Of a stretch of 11,345 nt of DNA, positions 810 to 10,613 are shown piece after piece; the stretch's first letter is position 1; each line of letters starts with the position of its first letter. Source of the DNA: Nitrospinae bacterium RIFCSPLOWO2_12_FULL_45_22 (GTDB lineage: Bacteria; 2-12-FULL-45-22). The DNA is taken from positions 1 through 11,345 of the forward strand of contig MHDQ01000203.1 in NCBI GenBank assembly GCA_001803565.1, written 5' to 3'. Below the pieces are notes generated by a model that had not been told where the DNA came from, made no database searches, and saw only the letters and a list, made by a program, of their open reading frames with translations. The translations under genes and the position numbers were made by a program.

Positions 810-3800
810 ATGGGCAGAGCAGTTTCCCTACCTAAATTATCCCTGAGACCTTGCCTGGCAATGGCTATAATCACATTCCTCCTGCTTCTCACCCCTAATA
901 GCACTCTGGCTGCTGTAACCGGTAGCTTGAAACTGACTGATGCAAGCTGGCAGGATAAGACTATCTATCGAACTGGGGAGACTTTGTATATCCAGGTAAC
1001 CGATACTGATGAGAATGAGGATAGTACGGTTAAAGATAGCTTGAGTGTATCAGTAGCAAGTAATACCGAGGCCACAGCAGAAACCGTTACCCTGACTGAG
1101 ACCGGTATTTCTACCGGGGTTTTTCAGGGCTCCATAGACCTGGATGACAAAGGGGGTGTCGTGGCAGATGGGAAGCTGCAAGTTACTTTTGGTGGCGATA
1201 AGATAACGGTTACCTATAAAGACCTTACCGATGACTGGAGCAACACCATAACTATCGTTAAGACAGCCGATTTCCTTGGTAAGGCCATTGGCGGTAATAT
1301 TTCAACCGATACTACCTGGACTAAGGCCAATAGTCCTTATATTGTCAGCGATGATGTTTTTGTGAAGCCCGGTGTTCTCTTGTCCATAGAGCCTGGGGTA
1401 GAGGTAATGTTCATGTCCGGGTCAGGACTGTTTATCGCTGGAACTTTAAGGGCTATGGGCACCCCTAGCAAACTGATAAGATTTGCCTCCTATGCCGAGT
1501 CACCAACCCCCGGTGATTGGGGTGGTATTATAGTGCAGGGGGAGGCAGAGATGGGGCAAAATGGCAAGGCCACATTGCAATATTGTATTATAACCGAAGG
1601 AAAGTATGGCATTGGCTCAAGTGGTAATGGGTATGGTGGTATGAATCCAAGTGCTACTATAAGCAATAGTATGCTAAGTAATAATGTGGTGGGTATTTCT
1701 TTTGGAAATTATCCTGGTGGAAATTTTAGTTTGTACGTAATAAATAGCATTATTTCTCAAAATGAGGGTACTGGCATTGGCTTTGGAGGAAGTAATTGTT
1801 CACTAGAGAATAACAACATATCTGACAATAAGGGAACAGGTATCAATTTAATATACCAAATTCACACTGGAACAATCACAATAAAAAATAATTACATATC
1901 TGGCAATAAGGGAGATGGTGTCACTGGAAATATAGGCTCCACAAAAATAGCGAACATAGAAAATAATCGCATAATCGGCAATCATGAATATGGTATCTAT
2001 TGCTTTGGTGCAACAATAAAGAATAATCATATAATGGGAAATAATGGAGGTGTTGTCGGAGATGACCTAATAGTCGAGAATAATTACATATTTAGTAATT
2101 TTGCTTTTGGCGTCAACACAGGGGGTAGCTGGGGTAGCTCTACAATAAAGAATAATTACATATCTGGTAATAAGGGGTATGGTGTCAACACTTACAAATC
2201 CGGGCCGCTAATAGCTTATAACAGCATCATTGCTAATAATGCCTGGGGCATTTACCATGATTGGGGTTCTAGCTCGACGGTTAACTATAATAATCTGCAT
2301 AGCAACGGTTCCTACGATTTTTATAACAAGTCTTCTGCCGACAATGTCAATGCCAAATACAACTACTGGGGGAGCAAAACGACCCAGGAGCTGAATTCTG
2401 GGGGTAATCCTAAAGATATCAGTACTATCTGGGACTATTTTGATGGTGGCAGCGACAATGGTATGGTGAATTACTCTAATTGGCTAAACAATATTACCCT
2501 ACTCCCCCCTACCGCTGTTATGTTTACGCCAGGAGATAATGCCATTGACTTGTCCTGGGCAGGGAGTGAAGGGGCCGCTGGATACTACCTTTACTATGGC
2601 CTATCCTCTGGTACCTATTACGCTCCTATAGATGTTGGTAATAATACCAGCTACCAGTTGACAGGCTTGTCCAATAATACTACTTACTATATAGCTTTGA
2701 CTGCTTACGATGGTCCGAGGAATGAGAGTGCCTATTCTTATGAAATAATGGTAACTACCGGCAAGGTAACTATCGGTCCATTTCCAGGCAATAATAAACC
2801 CAACACCCCTAGCAATCCCTCCCCGCCTGATGGTGCTCTTAATCAATCCATAAATACCATCCTGACCTGGCACGGGGGTGACCCTGATGCCGATGATACC
2901 GTTACTTATGATATATATTTTGCCCCTGACAGTAGTCGCCCTTCCTTGGTGAAGAGTGGACACGGTACCAATAGCTATAACCCTGGTATCCTCGATTATT
3001 CCACTACCTATTATTGGCAAATAGTGGCCAAGGATAAATATGGAGCAACGGATGTCGGACCGATCTGGGTTTTCATGACTGGGTCTGCCTCTAATAACCC
3101 ACCGAATACCCCCAGCTATCCTTCTCCCGCAGATGGCTCTACCAACCAATCTATCAATACCACCCTGACTTGGCAAGGTGGTGACCCAGATACAGAGGAT
3201 ACTGTTACTTATGATATATATTTTGGCACTAGTTCCACACCTTCATTAGTTGCTAGCGATCTTACTACCACCAGCTATAATCCTGGTACTCTGGCCTATT
3301 CTACTACCTATTATTGGCAGATTGTGGCAAAAGATAACCACGGAGCCACTACTACTAGTTCGATATGGAAATTTACCACCGCTGCTACCCTTAGCAATAA
3401 TCCACCAAATACCCCCTCTAGCCCCAATCCTTCTGATGGTGCTACGAACCAGCCTATTGATCTTACCCTTAGTTGGAGCGGAGGTGACCCTGACGCTGGA
3501 GATTCGGTTAGCTATAATCTCTATTTTGGAACTAGCAGTAGCCCTCCTCTGGTTAAGAGTAATCTAAGCGAGGCTAGCTATAGCCCCGGTACCTTGGCTT
3601 ATGGCACTAAATATTACTGGCGGGTAGTAGCTAAGGACAATCATGGGGCCGAGGCCGGGGGGCCAGTCTGGATTTTTGAAACTAGCCCTGCTCCTAATAA
3701 TCCACCTTATACCCCCAGCAGTCCGTCTCCAGCTAATGGTGCAACCGTGGCATCCATCAGCCTGAGGTTAAGCTGGAATGGGGGTGACCCCGATACAGGA

Positions 3801-4709
3801 GATTCGGTGGCTTATGATGTCTATTGGGATGGTGCAGGTAATAACCCTGATCCACCCCTCTGGGCAAGCAACCAGAGGGATACTACCGTTGATGTGATCC
3901 CTATCCGGAACCCTTCTACTGTTTATTACTGGAAGATTGTAGCTAAAGATAATCATGGCGCCACTAGCACTAGCCCAATATGGAAATTTACTACCGCAGA
4001 GGTCCTTACTAACCCACCCAATACCCCTACCGGCTTGAAGGCTACCGTAGCGGGTAAGGCCGTACATATCCAATGGCAGGCAAATAGTGAGTCCAACCTG
4101 GATCATTATAACCTCTATCTAGGTAATACCTCCAAAGGCTATAATCTATCTGGCAGCCCCTTCAATGTAGGCAATGTTACCTCCCTTACTGCCTCAGACG
4201 TCCCCGAAGGGACCTATTACCTGGCCCTGAGTGCGGTCAATAGTGCTGGCCTGGAGAGTAGCCTATCAGAAGAGATAAAGGTAGTGGTAGGTGCTGAGCC
4301 CACCATTACCATAAGCAGCAATGCGAGTAGCTATTCCCCAGGGGATACTTTTAGCCTTTCATTTGGCCTCAGTAATCCTACTACTACTACTCAGATAGTA
4401 GATGTCTTTATGGGAATTATTGCGCCAGATGGTAGTCTCTACTTTTTCGACTCTACTCCCTTTCTACCCAACCTGATACCAGCTAAGGTAGATGATCCAA
4501 GAACCTTTGTCCCAGCCAGTACATCTCTACAACTCAGCCCAGGATACGATTTCCCTTTGACCCCATTCTTTTCTGTAACATTGCCGACCGGCTTACCAGA
4601 GGGTACTTATCAGGCCTTTGCTGCCTTAGCTGAGCCCGGCTCTGTGCAGGCCGGTTCCCCTAAGATAATGGGGGATGTCAGTATTAGTTCCTTCACCTAT
4701 TCTCCTTAA
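810..4709 (+). CDS. Large secreted beta-helix and FN3-repeat protein
   Basis: The 1299-aa product starts with a signal peptide (about residues 1-35, hydrophobic core AIITFLLLLT, cleavage probably after STLAA). Residues 40-150 form a beta domain with D-x-D-E-N-E-D and the pattern TLTETGISTGVFQGS, seen in other surface proteins. Residues 155-560 are a right-handed parallel beta-helix rich in Asn/Gly turns (recurring N-N-Y-I-S-G-N-K-G). An FN3 domain follows (566-655), then four tandem Ig/FN3-like repeats of about 100 aa (660-1066) with shared motifs (P-N-T-P-S, T-W-x-G-G-D-P-D, Y-Y-W-x-I-V-A-K-D), another FN3 domain (1069-1170), and a C-terminal beta domain. There is no LPxTG, PEP-CTERM or membrane anchor. 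AGGAG at 799-803 supports the ATG. It probably binds or cleaves extracellular polysaccharide or acts as an adhesin; I see no catalytic motif that decides between these. Confidence 0.85.
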   Translation: MGRAVSLPKLSLRPCLAMAIITFLLLLTPNSTLAAVTGSLKLTDASWQDKTIYRTGETLYIQVTDTDENEDSTVKDSLSVSVASNTEATAETVTLTETGISTGVFQGSIDLDDKGGVVADGKLQVTFGGDKITVTYKDLTDDWSNTITIVKTADFLGKAIGGNISTDTTWTKANSPYIVSDDVFVKPGVLLSIEPGVEVMFMSGSGLFIAGTLRAMGTPSKLIRFASYAESPTPGDWGGIIVQGEAEMGQNGKATLQYCIITEGKYGIGSSGNGYGGMNPSATISNSMLSNNVVGISFGNYPGGNFSLYVINSIISQNEGTGIGFGGSNCSLENNNISDNKGTGINLIYQIHTGTITIKNNYISGNKGDGVTGNIGSTKIANIENNRIIGNHEYGIYCFGATIKNNHIMGNNGGVVGDDLIVENNYIFSNFAFGVNTGGSWGSSTIKNNYISGNKGYGVNTYKSGPLIAYNSIIANNAWGIYHDWGSSSTVNYNNLHSNGSYDFYNKSSADNVNAKYNYWGSKTTQELNSGGNPKDISTIWDYFDGGSDNGMVNYSNWLNNITLLPPTAVMFTPGDNAIDLSWAGSEGAAGYYLYYGLSSGTYYAPIDVGNNTSYQLTGLSNNTTYYIALTAYDGPRNESAYSYEIMVTTGKVTIGPFPGNNKPNTPSNPSPPDGALNQSINTILTWHGGDPDADDTVTYDIYFAPDSSRPSLVKSGHGTNSYNPGILDYSTTYYWQIVAKDKYGATDVGPIWVFMTGSASNNPPNTPSYPSPADGSTNQSINTTLTWQGGDPDTEDTVTYDIYFGTSSTPSLVASDLTTTSYNPGTLAYSTTYYWQIVAKDNHGATTTSSIWKFTTAATLSNNPPNTPSSPNPSDGATNQPIDLTLSWSGGDPDAGDSVSYNLYFGTSSSPPLVKSNLSEASYSPGTLAYGTKYYWRVVAKDNHGAEAGGPVWIFETSPAPNNPPYTPSSPSPANGATVASISLRLSWNGGDPDTGDSVAYDVYWDGAGNNPDPPLWASNQRDTTVDVIPIRNPSTVYYWKIVAKDNHGATSTSPIWKFTTAEVLTNPPNTPTGLKATVAGKAVHIQWQANSESNLDHYNLYLGNTSKGYNLSGSPFNVGNVTSLTASDVPEGTYYLALSAVNSAGLESSLSEEIKVVVGAEPTITISSNASSYSPGDTFSLSFGLSNPTTTTQIVDVFMGIIAPDGSLYFFDSTPFLPNLIPAKVDDPRTFVPASTSLQLSPGYDFPLTPFFSVTLPTGLPEGTYQAFAALAEPGSVQAGSPKIMGDVSISSFTYSP
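1809..2176 (+). repeat. Degenerate direct repeats inside the beta-helix coding region
   Basis: A 26-bp unit beginning AATAATTACATATCTGG and ending AATAAGGG occurs at 1887-1912 and 2151-2176 with one mismatch. Weaker copies start at 1809 and 2079. Each encodes one beta-helix turn (N-N-Y-I-S-G-N-K-G). This stretch is visibly more AT-rich than the rest of the gene. Confidence 0.65.
2787..4007 (+). repeat. Four tandem ~300-bp coding repeats
   Basis: Units begin near 2787, 3093, 3396 and 3696, each opening with codons for N-N-x-P-x-T-P-S. They are 300-312 bp long and encode homologous Ig/FN3-like domains. Units 2 and 3 are the most alike in sequence. Copy-number change by recombination would be expected. 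Confidence 0.75.
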
Positions 4710-5932: not shown

Positions 5933-6187
5933 TTATTTCCTATAAAAGGAAAGAAGGGTAACAGCTTCACCGATAACCTCATACATACAACGCCAAAGAG
6001 GAGTGAGCTTGAACCGATATTGATTAGCGTATCCACTTTTGTACTTCTTTATGACACCTTTCCCTGGGTGTCTGAAGGGATCCCTTTCCAAATGAGAGAT
6101 CATAGTATCAGCTTCCTTTTGCAAATTAGGAGGGAGCTTTTTATATTCCCTTTCAGCTCTCGGTGTCCATAGTACCCGATATGTCAT
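5933..6187 (-). CDS. RelE/ParE-superfamily toxin
   Basis: This 84-aa protein has the RelE/ParE fold pattern: an opening strand (TYRVLWTPRAEREYKKLP), two helices (LQKEADTMISHLERDPF), then the antiparallel sheet (YRFKLTPLWRCMYEVIGEAVTLLSFYRK). Members of this superfamily cut mRNA on the ribosome (RelE) or poison gyrase (ParE). The basic and aromatic residues in the last strands (R58, R66, Y69, F81, Y82, R83) fit the RNase-type branch, but I cannot assign a target. Its ATG overlaps the antitoxin stop (ATGA), the normal arrangement for translational coupling, with the antitoxin made first. It is expected to be neutralised by direct binding to the upstream product. Confidence 0.8.
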   Translation of the reverse strand: MTYRVLWTPRAEREYKKLPPNLQKEADTMISHLERDPFRHPGKGVIKKYKSGYANQYRFKLTPLWRCMYEVIGEAVTLLSFYRK

Positions 6188-6426
6188 GGCCTAACTGGTT
6201 TGGCCTTACCTGCCCTGGCTTCTGCAATTGAGGCATCAATCTCTCTTTTAAGCTCAGGGTGGGCATAGATATAAGCGGTCTCTTCCCAATCATCCAGGAG
6301 CTCCTCGGCTTTAGAGGTATCGCCATTCTTTGCTACTTCTTGCAATGTCTGGCGCAATTCCAGGATAAATTGCTCCAGGTCTTCTTTAGGCAAACAGGGA
6401 ATCCATGTTGTTTCCAATGTCTCCAT
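6184..6426 (-). CDS. Antitoxin-like partner of the RelE/ParE toxin
   Basis: This 80-aa acidic, helical protein ends in a segment (REIDASIAEARAGKAKPV) that resembles the C-terminal toxin-binding tail of several small antitoxins paired with RelE/ParE toxins. The preceding L-D-D-W-E-E-T-A-Y-I-Y-A-H-P-E-L is also a familiar pattern of that group. No DNA-binding domain is evident, so autoregulation may depend on another protein. AAGGAG lies seven bases before the ATG. The gene overlaps the toxin by four bases and, unusually, overlaps the end of the upstream HTH gene by 41 bases in another frame, so all three are probably translated from one message. Confidence 0.7.
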   Translation of the reverse strand: METLETTWIPCLPKEDLEQFILELRQTLQEVAKNGDTSKAEELLDDWEETAYIYAHPELKREIDASIAEARAGKAKPVRP

Positions 6427-7921: not shown

Positions 7922-8130
7922 ATGTTGACGGTTACTTTAAGCACTCGGCTCAAGGAATTACGGCAGAAACAGGGCCTAACCCAAATGCAGTTGGGCCAGA
8001 AAGCCCGCCTCACTCCACAGTTTATCTCCGCGGCATTGAGCGGGGTCATCTGCGGCCTTATCCGAAGCAAATGGATCGGATTGCACGAGCTTTAAGAGTG
8101 TCTGTAAGGGAGGTATTTGCGGATGATTAA
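7922..8130 (+). pseudogene. XRE-family regulator broken by a frameshift
   Basis: The reading frame opens at an ATG preceded by AGGAGGGG and encodes the first half of a Cro/C1 helix-turn-helix (RLKELRQKQGLTQMQLGQKA, then TPQFIS). After TCC at 8027-8029 this frame loses similarity. The family continues in another frame from ATT at 8035: I-E-R-G-H-L-R-P-Y-P-K-Q-M-D-R-I-A-R-A-L-R-V-S-V-R-E-V-F-A-D-D and stop. Family members have one residue between I-S and I-E-R-G; here five bases (GCGGC) stand in that place, so two extra bases explain the break exactly. The intact form would be about 69 aa, overlap the helicase start by 8 bases, and probably act as the element's repressor. A sequencing error cannot be excluded. 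Confidence 0.7.
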
Positions 8131-9664
8131 ATCTGCGATTTATGAGCGAGAAGCAGAAGTCATATCATCTAAACTTGCTGAGGTAAAAAGACTCTGGCCT
8201 GAGCTTAGCGAGGAAGAGCGCAGAAAAAAACTATATGAGTTACATCGCATGCTTGCTGTCAGCTCTGAGTTAATACAAGAAGCCGTCCTGAGTGATATAG
8301 TCCCTGATCTTGAGACAGAAGCTGAATACAGGGCAGAGCTTATGGCTGCAAAAGAGAGATTGGCAAAGAATGGTATTTTACCCCCAGGTAATGGTGGGCC
8401 GACAAATGGCCGGGATAGTCTTGATAAGTGGCCCAGCCCTGTAGCACAAGAAGCGTACTATGGCCTTGCTGGTGATGTTGTACGAACTATTAGTCCTCAT
8501 TCAGAAGCCGATGATGTTGCATTGTTAGTTAATTTCTTAGTAGCTTTTGGTAATGTTATTGGCCCTGGGCCTCACTTTATTGCCGGAGCCGACAAACACT
8601 TCACTAACCTCTTTGCTGTCCTGGTTGGTGAGACCTCCAAGGGCCGGAAAGGAATGTCATGGAACCGGATTCGAGAGTTGTTCTCTAGGATAGACGGGCA
8701 ATGGGCGGCATACAAAACCCCCGACGGGCTTTCCAGTGGCGAGGGGCTGATTTGGGCTGTGCGAGATCAGATTATGAAGGAAAACCCAATCAAGAAGGAG
8801 GGGTGGGTAGTTGACTATCAGGAAGTGATCGAGGATGCGGGTGTCTCGGATAAGAGGCTGCTGATCGTTGAGGGCGAATTCGCCTCTATTTTAAAAGTGA
8901 TGCAGCGTGACGGCAACACTTTGTCGCCGGTCATTAGAGGCGCATGGGATAAGGGAATACTCCAATCACTCACTAAGAATAGCCCTGCCAAAGCTACAGA
9001 TGTCCACATCTCTATTTTGGGGCATATCTCACGAGAAGAACTTTTAAGGAATTTAACTTCAACCGAAATGGGCAATGGGTTTGGCAACCGTTTTCTATGG
9101 GTCTGCGTGCGGAGAAGCAAATCCCTGCCTGACGGAGGAATCGTACCAGAAGAAAAAATAAAAGCACTGGTAGATCGTATCAAGGATGCCGTATCAAAAA
9201 TTCAAGGAATAGGGTTTGTTACTAGAGACAAAGAAGCGAATGAAATCTGGCATGCCGTTTATTCATCGTTATCAGAGGGTAAACCTGGGCTATACGGTGC
9301 CCTAATCGCCAGGGCCGAGGCCCAGGCTATGCGGCTGGCTTGCATATACGCCTTACTCGACTCATCAGCTATTGTACGGGCAGAACACCTAAGAGGGGCA
9401 TTAGCTATCTGGGAATACTGTGAAGAAAGCGCCCATTACATTTTCGGCGACAGGACCGGCAACCCGGTAGCAGATAAAATCATGTTTGCGCTTTACAATG
9501 GCCCACTTTCTCAAACAGCGCTACACGGTTTGTTTAAGCGACATGTAAAAGGCGAAGCAATTGGCGATGCCCTTGAGTTGTTGCTTAGGCTGGGCAAAGT
9601 AGAATGTGAAGAAAAAGAAACCGGGGGGCGACCAACAATTATTTGGCACTTAAAACAAGTGTAG
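8123..9664 (+). CDS. DUF3987-type P-loop helicase/replication protein
   Basis: The 513-aa product has a charged helical N-terminus, then the conserved core of the DUF3987 family of mobile-element proteins, which are related to RepA/DnaB-like ATPases and usually act in replication of phages and integrative elements. Visible motifs: Walker A variant G-E-T-S-K-G-R-K-G (about 169-177), D-G-L-S-S-G-E-G-L (201-209), Walker B-like K-R-L-L-I-V-E-G-E-F (244-253), L-T-K-N-S-P, H-I-S-I-L-G-H-I, and N-G-F-G-N-R-F-L-W with a likely Arg finger (about 318-326). The C-terminal 65 residues resemble a winged helix. GGGAGG at 8108-8113 is nine bases from this ATG; a TTG two codons earlier is too close to that site. 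The start overlaps the XRE stop by eight bases, suggesting coupled translation. Confidence 0.8.
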   Translation: MIKSAIYEREAEVISSKLAEVKRLWPELSEEERRKKLYELHRMLAVSSELIQEAVLSDIVPDLETEAEYRAELMAAKERLAKNGILPPGNGGPTNGRDSLDKWPSPVAQEAYYGLAGDVVRTISPHSEADDVALLVNFLVAFGNVIGPGPHFIAGADKHFTNLFAVLVGETSKGRKGMSWNRIRELFSRIDGQWAAYKTPDGLSSGEGLIWAVRDQIMKENPIKKEGWVVDYQEVIEDAGVSDKRLLIVEGEFASILKVMQRDGNTLSPVIRGAWDKGILQSLTKNSPAKATDVHISILGHISREELLRNLTSTEMGNGFGNRFLWVCVRRSKSLPDGGIVPEEKIKALVDRIKDAVSKIQGIGFVTRDKEANEIWHAVYSSLSEGKPGLYGALIARAEAQAMRLACIYALLDSSAIVRAEHLRGALAIWEYCEESAHYIFGDRTGNPVADKIMFALYNGPLSQTALHGLFKRHVKGEAIGDALELLLRLGKVECEEKETGGRPTIIWHLKQV

Positions 9665-9895
9665 CTAATGTTATGTGCAAAATAAATTCATATGCGAAAA
9701 ACTAAACTTTTCCGAGTAGCCTTTTTTCGCTTAATTCGCTTTTTTCGCAACATAAGAACAATTATTTATGGTTATCCTAATGATTACCACCAAGCCCAAT
9801 ATATTGATACCAATTGGACGAATAATATGCAACATGCAGCAGCAATGGTAGTGAAGCGGACAACCTAATAATTATTTTTCCAGGAACCAGGTTTT
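9665..9895. other. 231-bp noncoding gap, candidate origin or regulatory region
   Basis: No coding potential is visible. The left half holds the iteron-like TTCGC array and its partial inverted partner (TGCGAAAAA at 9693-9701 with TTTTTCGCA at 9741-9749). The right half has two small palindromes close together, CAATATATTG (9797-9806) and CCAATTGG (9810-9817), and is AT-rich. The position next to a replication ATPase would suit an origin. I see no convincing promoter. Confidence 0.35.
9725..9750 (+). repeat. 9-bp iteron-like array, copy 1 (noncoding)
   Basis: TTCGC occurs at 9726, 9735 and 9744, exactly nine bases apart, within TTCGCTTAA, TTCGCTTTT and TTCGCAACA. The 26 bases from 9725 to 9750 are a perfect reverse complement of 10003-10028. 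Confidence 0.8.
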
Positions 9896-10426
9896 ATGGG
9901 ACATTATCTTGAGATAGCTAAACGGGTAAAAACCATAAAAAGAGAGAGTACAGAACCAAAACAAGAGGGAAGGATTATTGCGAGAAAAATAATAGAAACC
10001 TCTTGCGAAAAAAGCGAATTAAGCGAAATAAGTGGGGCAGATTCACAGGTCGGAGAAGATCACCAGGGAGATCAAGAGAAATTTCCTTGTACGGCAACTG
10101 ATTGTTTTGACCCCGATGGCGCCTTAGCTTCCCTGCTAAAGTGGGCTAAAATAAAAGGTATAAGTGATGTCCAGGTAGCTTCTGTTGTGGACGATCTTAT
10201 CAAGTCAAAATCCCTCAAGGCGCCCTGGGGTATAAAGATCAAGAACAGCCCTGTCTTGGGTGATTACTGGCTCGTGAGCGATGACCAGGCCAAGAAGCAT
10301 ATCCCTGGTAATGAAACGGCCTTTACCCAGGATGAAATCGGGATACTGGCTGAGGTAAGAGAAATATTTGGTATCAAGGCCGTTGAGGTAAAGAAGTATG
10401 GCACAGGAAAACAAGCTGGCAACTGA
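9896..10426 (+). CDS. Protein of unknown function carrying an embedded iteron repeat
   Basis: The 176-aa product begins MGHYLEIAKRVKTIKRES, a helical basic start. A short periodic segment follows, S-C-E-K-S-E-L-S-E-I-S (residues 36-46), in which S-E-x recurs every three codons; this is encoded by the inverted copy of the upstream iteron array. An acidic linker leads to a C-terminal part with helices (ALASLLKWAKIKGISD, VQVASVVDDLIKSKSL) and a W-G-I-K-I...Y-W-L-V-S strand pair that could be a winged helix. I do not recognise the family, but the place directly after a DUF3987 helicase suggests a replication accessory role. The ATG has a weak AGG five bases upstream. Its end overlaps the next gene by 29 bases. 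Confidence 0.65.
   Translation: MGHYLEIAKRVKTIKRESTEPKQEGRIIARKIIETSCEKSELSEISGADSQVGEDHQGDQEKFPCTATDCFDPDGALASLLKWAKIKGISDVQVASVVDDLIKSKSLKAPWGIKIKNSPVLGDYWLVSDDQAKKHIPGNETAFTQDEIGILAEVREIFGIKAVEVKKYGTGKQAGN
10003..10028 (-). repeat. 9-bp iteron-like array, copy 2 (inside a gene)
   Basis: GCGAA occurs at 10005, 10014 and 10023, again nine bases apart, in the reverse orientation to the copy at 9725-9750. All 26 bases match and the identity stops sharply at both ends. It encodes the S-E-x tripeptide repeats of the 176-aa protein. Confidence 0.8.
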
Positions 10427-10613
10427 ATTCCAAAACATGGATCAAGGAAAGGTTTTGGCCCTATACAGACAAGGGAAAGGCATAAAGGCTATAGCTAGGG
10501 AATTAAACACTTATCCCAACGCCATAAAGCGATTTCTGATTAAAAAGGGGCTTTATAACGTCTCCCCTGAGGATAGGGTGACAACAATTAGCAATAAAGG
10601 TGACAAGCAATAA
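10398..10613 (+). CDS. Small helix-turn-helix protein
   Basis: This 71-aa protein contains a homeodomain-like/resolvase-type helix-turn-helix at about residues 18-50 (K-V-L-A-L-Y-R-Q-G-K-G-I-K-A-I-A-R-E-L-N, then T-Y-P-N-A-I-K-R-F-L-I-K-K-G-L), the pattern found in resolvase C-termini and small phage DNA-binding proteins. No catalytic domain is attached. The start at 10398 is supported by GAGG at 10385-10388, nine bases upstream; an in-frame ATG at 10437 is possible but has no better site. It overlaps its upstream neighbour by 29 bases and its downstream neighbour by 14, so it belongs to the same operon. A role in regulation or in DNA recognition for packaging is plausible. Confidence 0.65.
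   Translation: MAQENKLATEFQNMDQGKVLALYRQGKGIKAIARELNTYPNAIKRFLIKKGLYNVSPEDRVTTISNKGDKQ

Follow-up and report, generated by a model that had tools for sequence, protein, structure and literature searches.

The window (the whole 11,345-nt stretch of DNA that was analysed) contains a gene for a DUF3987 protein, a predicted helicase, and two short arrays of direct repeats that face each other beyond its 3' end, one of them inside the next gene. The features that concern us here are as follows.

8117..9664, + strand: DUF3987 protein, a predicted MCM-like AAA+ helicase with a C-terminal winged helix, and the proposed iteron reader
9464..9652, + strand: winged-helix domain, residues 450-512, from the secondary structure of the model
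9726..9748, - strand: iteron array 1, GCGAANNNN three times, noncoding, 3' of the helicase gene
9751..10002, no strand: inter-array stretch, A+T 64.7% versus 56% for the contig
9896..10426, + strand: 176-aa open reading frame (ORF); array 2 lies in its N-terminal third
10005..10027, + strand: iteron array 2, GCGAANNNN three times, in frame within the 176-aa ORF
10398-10613: 71-aa helix-turn-helix (HTH) protein

A small ORF that spans array 1 (9692-9868) is probably spurious. Several other genes of the window deserve mention in their own right. A Cro/C1-type HTH ORF of 57 aa (7922-8130) seems to run on in another frame, so that either the repressor gene is broken or the assembly is wrong at this point; a ParE/YoeB-like toxin ORF lies on the minus strand at 5933-6426, where an overlapping 80-aa ORF may be the candidate antitoxin; and a large secreted beta-helix/fn3 protein (810-4709) adjoins the element.

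A repeat search confirmed the perfect 26-bp inverted match between 9725-9750 and 10003-10028 that the preliminary description had reported, with one copy inside a gene, and placed it within arms of 30 nt (9721-9750 and 10003-10032, 1 mismatch) that are separated by 252 nt. Both arms hold their three units at an exact 9-bp spacing (TTCGC/GCGAA), the minus-strand units starting at 9726, 9735 and 9744 and the plus-strand units at 10005, 10014 and 10023, and array 2 is translated as C-E-K-S-E-L-S-E-I-S. The pattern GCGAAN4GCGAAN4GCGAA has two matches in the 3.67-Mb genome, both of them the window arrays, and the reversed control pattern has none across the same 3.67 Mb. The spacers of the window are 8/8 identical between the arms, which makes it possible that one arm arose as a copy of the other. 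The stretch between the arrays ranks in the top 7% of 252-mers for A+T, a modest richness.

Does the pair belong to the helicase gene, or only to this contig? Queries with the DUF3987 protein and with alignments of it, against genomes and viral contigs, yielded about 50 loci besides the window; a single-protein scan of genome contigs returned only 1 relative, and a search of relatives at n = 60, with the window's phylum represented by 2 genomes, gave none outside the window's own genome. On inspection by eye, 9-bp arrays, mostly facing, lie at the 3' end of the gene in nearly all close relatives. When scored, 32 of 52 loci had an inverted pair of at least 19/23 at the 3' end of the DUF3987 gene, a count in which L030 was scored on the wrong strand (as it was in the run counts) and entered as a miss, and whose denominator is slightly inflated by the near-duplicates L042/L043 and L060/L072. 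The same threshold was reached in 0/52, 0/50 and 1/46 control regions of these loci. Because only 1 of the 148 control stretches has such a pair, chance is excluded as its source, and the tie between iterons and the DUF3987 gene that had been proposed earlier stands.

The period of nine is equally general. In arms picked without regard to period, within-arm identity peaks at offsets of 9 (0.475) and 18 (0.421), other offsets lying at about 0.27; in a count of exact 5-mer runs, period 9 scores 11.0, the other periods from 6 to 15 score at most 2.8 and controls about 2.2, and the usual array size is three units. The core itself varies by element (GCGAA, ACGAA, GCGGA, GCGAC and others), as does its placement, that is, in the tail of the helicase gene (L018, L022, L026, L039 and L047), in intergenic DNA, or in the next gene (the window and L036). 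Three loci (L039, L047 and L055) carry arrays in the same orientation rather than inverted, so that inversion as such is not essential. SaPI/SCC-type origins have an A+T-rich region beside or between their iterons; L010 and L021 are not A+T-rich by eye, versus 64.7% in the window.

The arrays do not extend to every DUF3987 protein. Relatives with the same genes and no repeat, which the preliminary description had named as evidence against its reading, are confined to those that are distant or poorly resolved: no clear array was seen in L027, L075, L077 and L078, and no such arrays in the actinobacterial phages P318 and Success or in a Nonomuraea plasmid, whose DUF3987 proteins are at 23-29% identity. 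Arrays do accompany some broader PF13148 matches (L097, L100, L101 and L102). The feature thus belongs to one subfamily and some cousins.

Some loci hold more than the usual arrangement. In L052, a stretch of less than 300 bp (4273-4560) holds four or more GCGCA arrays, some in each orientation, which is more than in other loci, and extra arrays also occur in L044 and L037. Beyond the 3' end of the DUF3987 locus in L010 lie about 2 kb (9100-11500) of degenerate repeats with an 18-bp period (CGGTTCACTCN8CGGTACTCTC type; 18 = 2 x 9), perhaps a partition site or a very large array. In L036, the gene after the arrays (1558-3507) encodes a family A DNA polymerase with a 3'-5' exonuclease and has two in-frame iteron arrays near its N terminus; SCCmec likewise pairs an A-family polymerase with an iteron helicase.

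Where an array is translated, is it the peptide or the DNA that is kept? The coding arrays use any reading frame, and their peptides are quite different across loci. Inside them, glutamate is encoded by 24 GAA and 1 GAG, versus 112 GAA and 148 GAG in the rest of the same genes; therefore selection keeps the DNA letters, which bears out the earlier suggestion that the coding copy is constrained as DNA. The 9-bp step is also present in noncoding arrays, and so codons are not its cause; it is merely harmless inside genes, since 9 bp is three codons and an array can sit in a reading frame without shifting it. This explains the odd tripeptide repeats (SEx, NEx, VIS and FNA) of such proteins as DNA sites translated through.

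We turn to the protein proposed to read these sites. It matches Pfam PF13148 above the cut-off and has PHROG DNA primase/helicase matches, and no solved structure convincingly matches DUF3987 by sequence. The AlphaFold model is of middling confidence (mean pLDDT 73.6); its closest structures are MCM chains (Z about 15), and its C terminus (residues 450-512) is a predicted winged helix. On this model, DUF3987 looks like an MCM-like motor followed by a C-terminal winged helix, and MCM helicases have their AAA+ motor and winged helix in the same places. Cellular MCM is loaded by ORC/Cdc6-type proteins; unlike it, the DUF3987 winged helix itself appears, from the covariation that follows, to choose the DNA sequence.

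Across loci, distance between winged helices correlates with distance between iteron cores (Mantel r 0.47, p 5e-4) and distance between ATPase domains does not (r 0.16, p 0.10). A single position dominates this relationship. Among the 30 loci whose core reads one way only, residue 476 is Asn with ACG cores (10/10) and His (19 loci) or Arg (1 locus) with GCG cores (20/20). The association of this residue with base 1 (Fisher 3.3e-8) ranks first among 391 columns (z 21.5, the next 4.8); residue 476 was picked after the alignment had been viewed, and the association survives correction for all 391. In the window, the residue is His476 (codon 9542-9544), which immediately precedes the recognition helix, with Lys478 (codon 9548-9550) nearby. 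Five loci (L018, L031, L042, L045 and L049) lie outside the count, their cores being readable on either strand, and each has a fitting reading. Four of the 30 were scored with the rule already in view, and all fit: L030 and L062, which are clean, and L048 and L053, which were retained despite irregular arrays. On a tree built from the ATPase without the winged helix, there are nine base switches and nine residue switches and the labels do not cluster; where branch support is good, which is the case for 4 of the nine switches, the independent pairs are concordant in 4/4 cases (sign test p 0.125). Thr478 goes with C at core position 5 in 3/3 loci, a hint of a second link.

In total, linkage to the helicase gene, a 9-bp period, arrays of three units, constraint at the level of DNA, and covariation of a residue with a base are all present at these loci. 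We posit that the arrays are a replication origin or helicase-loading site that the DUF3987 protein of the same element reads through its winged helix, and we consider this reading, to which sequence comparison leads us, quite probable. That the helicase of the element binds an origin-type site here had been suggested at the outset, and the linkage, the period and the covariation of residue 476 indicate that this is probably correct. In this model, three 9-bp sites face three 9-bp sites, and the C-terminal winged helix of DUF3987 would read each of them; binding would bring one helicase ring, or more than one, next to the stretch that is richer in A+T; the strands would be opened; and replication of the element would start, after excision or induction. 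Physical binding, strand opening and origin activity are in each case what we infer from the arrays. Against this reading, the orientation of the arrays varies, and the geometry of a strict bidirectional origin would predict a fixed one.

How does such a site compare with known replication systems? Classical iteron plasmids (RepA/RepE/TrfA type) have iterons of 17-22 bp and a WH1-WH2 Rep protein. The window is not of this class: its unit is 9 bp, and no Rep_3-type family was returned for those of its proteins that were searched. At ori/crr of phage P4, iterons lie at two distant cis sites and are bound by the alpha primase-helicase. Of the systems studied, Cch2 of SCCmec comes closest: immediately 3' of its own gene lie three AAGTG iterons in 23 bp, which its C-terminal domain binds and which its helicase activity requires (PMC7581432). 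The 23-bp region would fit a 9-bp spacing (5+4+5+4+5). The Cch2 locus is like the DUF3987 loci in having a self-encoded helicase (hexameric in Cch2) and short iterons directly 3' of its gene; it differs in that Cch2 is a D5/Primase_Cterm helicase, not DUF3987, with one intergenic set of three reported. In staphylococcal SaPI elements, too, the C-terminal domain of the initiator helicase Rep reads iterons just 3' of rep (Ubeda et al. 2007, 2012, as presented in PMC7581432). According to the same account, Rep is a DUF927 protein in SaPIbov1 and D5-type in SaPI5, whereas the window helicase is DUF3987, and neither arrays within ORFs nor a residue-base code is described in it for SaPIs. The window shares with the SaPI/SCC type, the origin of a self-loading initiator helicase, its layout, short iterons at or directly 3' of the helicase gene, and, by prediction, an AAA+ helicase with a C-terminal DNA-binding domain.

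Work on DUF3987 itself points in a similar direction. A helicase function has been predicted for the domain, and for the PrimPol-PV1 group, which has a DUF3987 domain, it has been proposed that the C-terminal winged helix recognises the origin; an origin sequence, an iteron and a specificity code are absent from that paper (PMC5862659). In PICMI115, of a marine satellite family, deletion of prim (DUF3987/DUF5906 type) lowers copy number (PMC10803314). Our literature search found no paper combining DUF3987 and iteron. By analogy, then, the kind of origin would be one known from SaPI and SCCmec, and the helicase family is new for it.

The strongest competing explanation accepts that the DUF3987 winged helix binds the arrays but makes them operators or copy-number control for the downstream gene or the helicase operon. 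The covariation reveals only the reader of the site, not the consequence of reading it, and the sites often fall in the gap that follows the helicase gene or where the gene after it begins. However, the arrays are at the 3' end of the reader's gene, often in its coding tail, and not at a promoter, and the studied systems with such a layout are origins (PMC7581432). We therefore think an operator role improbable, if deserving of some weight. A different proposal is that the pair acts as an RNA or DNA hairpin (a terminator, an mRNA stabiliser or a cruciform), and the window transcript does fold with the arms paired (z -6.0). Yet the single-orientation arrays mentioned above cannot pair, and while facing cores match 15/15 in nearly all loci, the 4-nt spacers reach 0.58 versus 0.50 between loci (L031, mis-registered in this comparison, is to be disregarded there). 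Pairing would also leave unexplained both the period of nine and the covariation with a single residue of the protein. It is unlikely that the arrays generally serve as hairpins, and as an account of the pair we give the hairpin very little credence.

Could another protein of the element be the reader? Both the 71-aa HTH gene and the 176-aa gene adjoin the arrays, and the preliminary description had put forward the former as a binder. Two related elements on contigs C123 (L005) and C102 (L015) of the same genome as the window (C203) speak against either. The C-terminal part of the 176-aa protein is common to them (69% identity in C123, 56% in C102), as is the small HTH protein (60% and 76%), whose motif KGIKAIA.EL.TYPNAIKR is nearly identical in all three; the replication helicases differ, being DUF3987 in the window, D5/DUF5906 in C123 and AAA_25 in C102. 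The repeats are quite different as well: 3' of the D5/DUF5906 gene, C123 has gtctaaagtgtcgaaactgtctaag facing tagacactttagacggtttctac in 9-bp steps (GTCTA-type), and 3' of the AAA_25 gene, C102 has GTTTAC in 10-11 bp steps. Since the HTH motif is the same and the repeats are unrelated from one helicase to the next, it is the helicase gene that the repeats go with, and the HTH or 176-aa protein is a most improbable reader. With right-hand genes in common and three unrelated helicase modules, each with its own repeats, the three integrated elements are a case of natural module swapping. D5/DUF5906 loci as a class do not share the arrays: 16 further DUF5906 loci gave no general 9-bp signal, although the C123 locus does have one. 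No relatives of the 176-aa protein or of the C123 D5 primase were found on viral contigs. A beta-helix/fn3 protein adjoins the element in C123 (L005 15-1397) as in C203; their C-terminal parts are similar, and they were possibly duplicated with the insertion site.

Least credible of all is that the inverted pair is a duplication due to chance, or that it is a small mobile element's repeat spreading in frame through genes as once suggested: the identical spacers leave room for arm copying, but the triple occurs at only two places genome-wide, and relatives keep the architecture with different letters in the same place, which refutes such an origin for the architecture itself.

If the reading of the arrays as an origin or loading site is right, it can be generalized, and on this wider proposal we are evenly divided. 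The DUF3987 proteins of mobile elements would be bacterial MCM-like helicases that choose their own origin by a one-residue code (Asn476 for A, His476 or Arg476 for G, and perhaps Thr478 for C at position 5) on three-site 9-bp arrays, two of which, facing, could accommodate a pair of opposed rings or the six subunits of a single ring; such origins could sit in ORFs, their period being that of three codons. The finding offers a probable origin and initiator for a large uncharacterised helicase family of phages, satellites and integrated elements. Such origins could be spotted from sequence, and the code would predict the repeat bound by each helicase.
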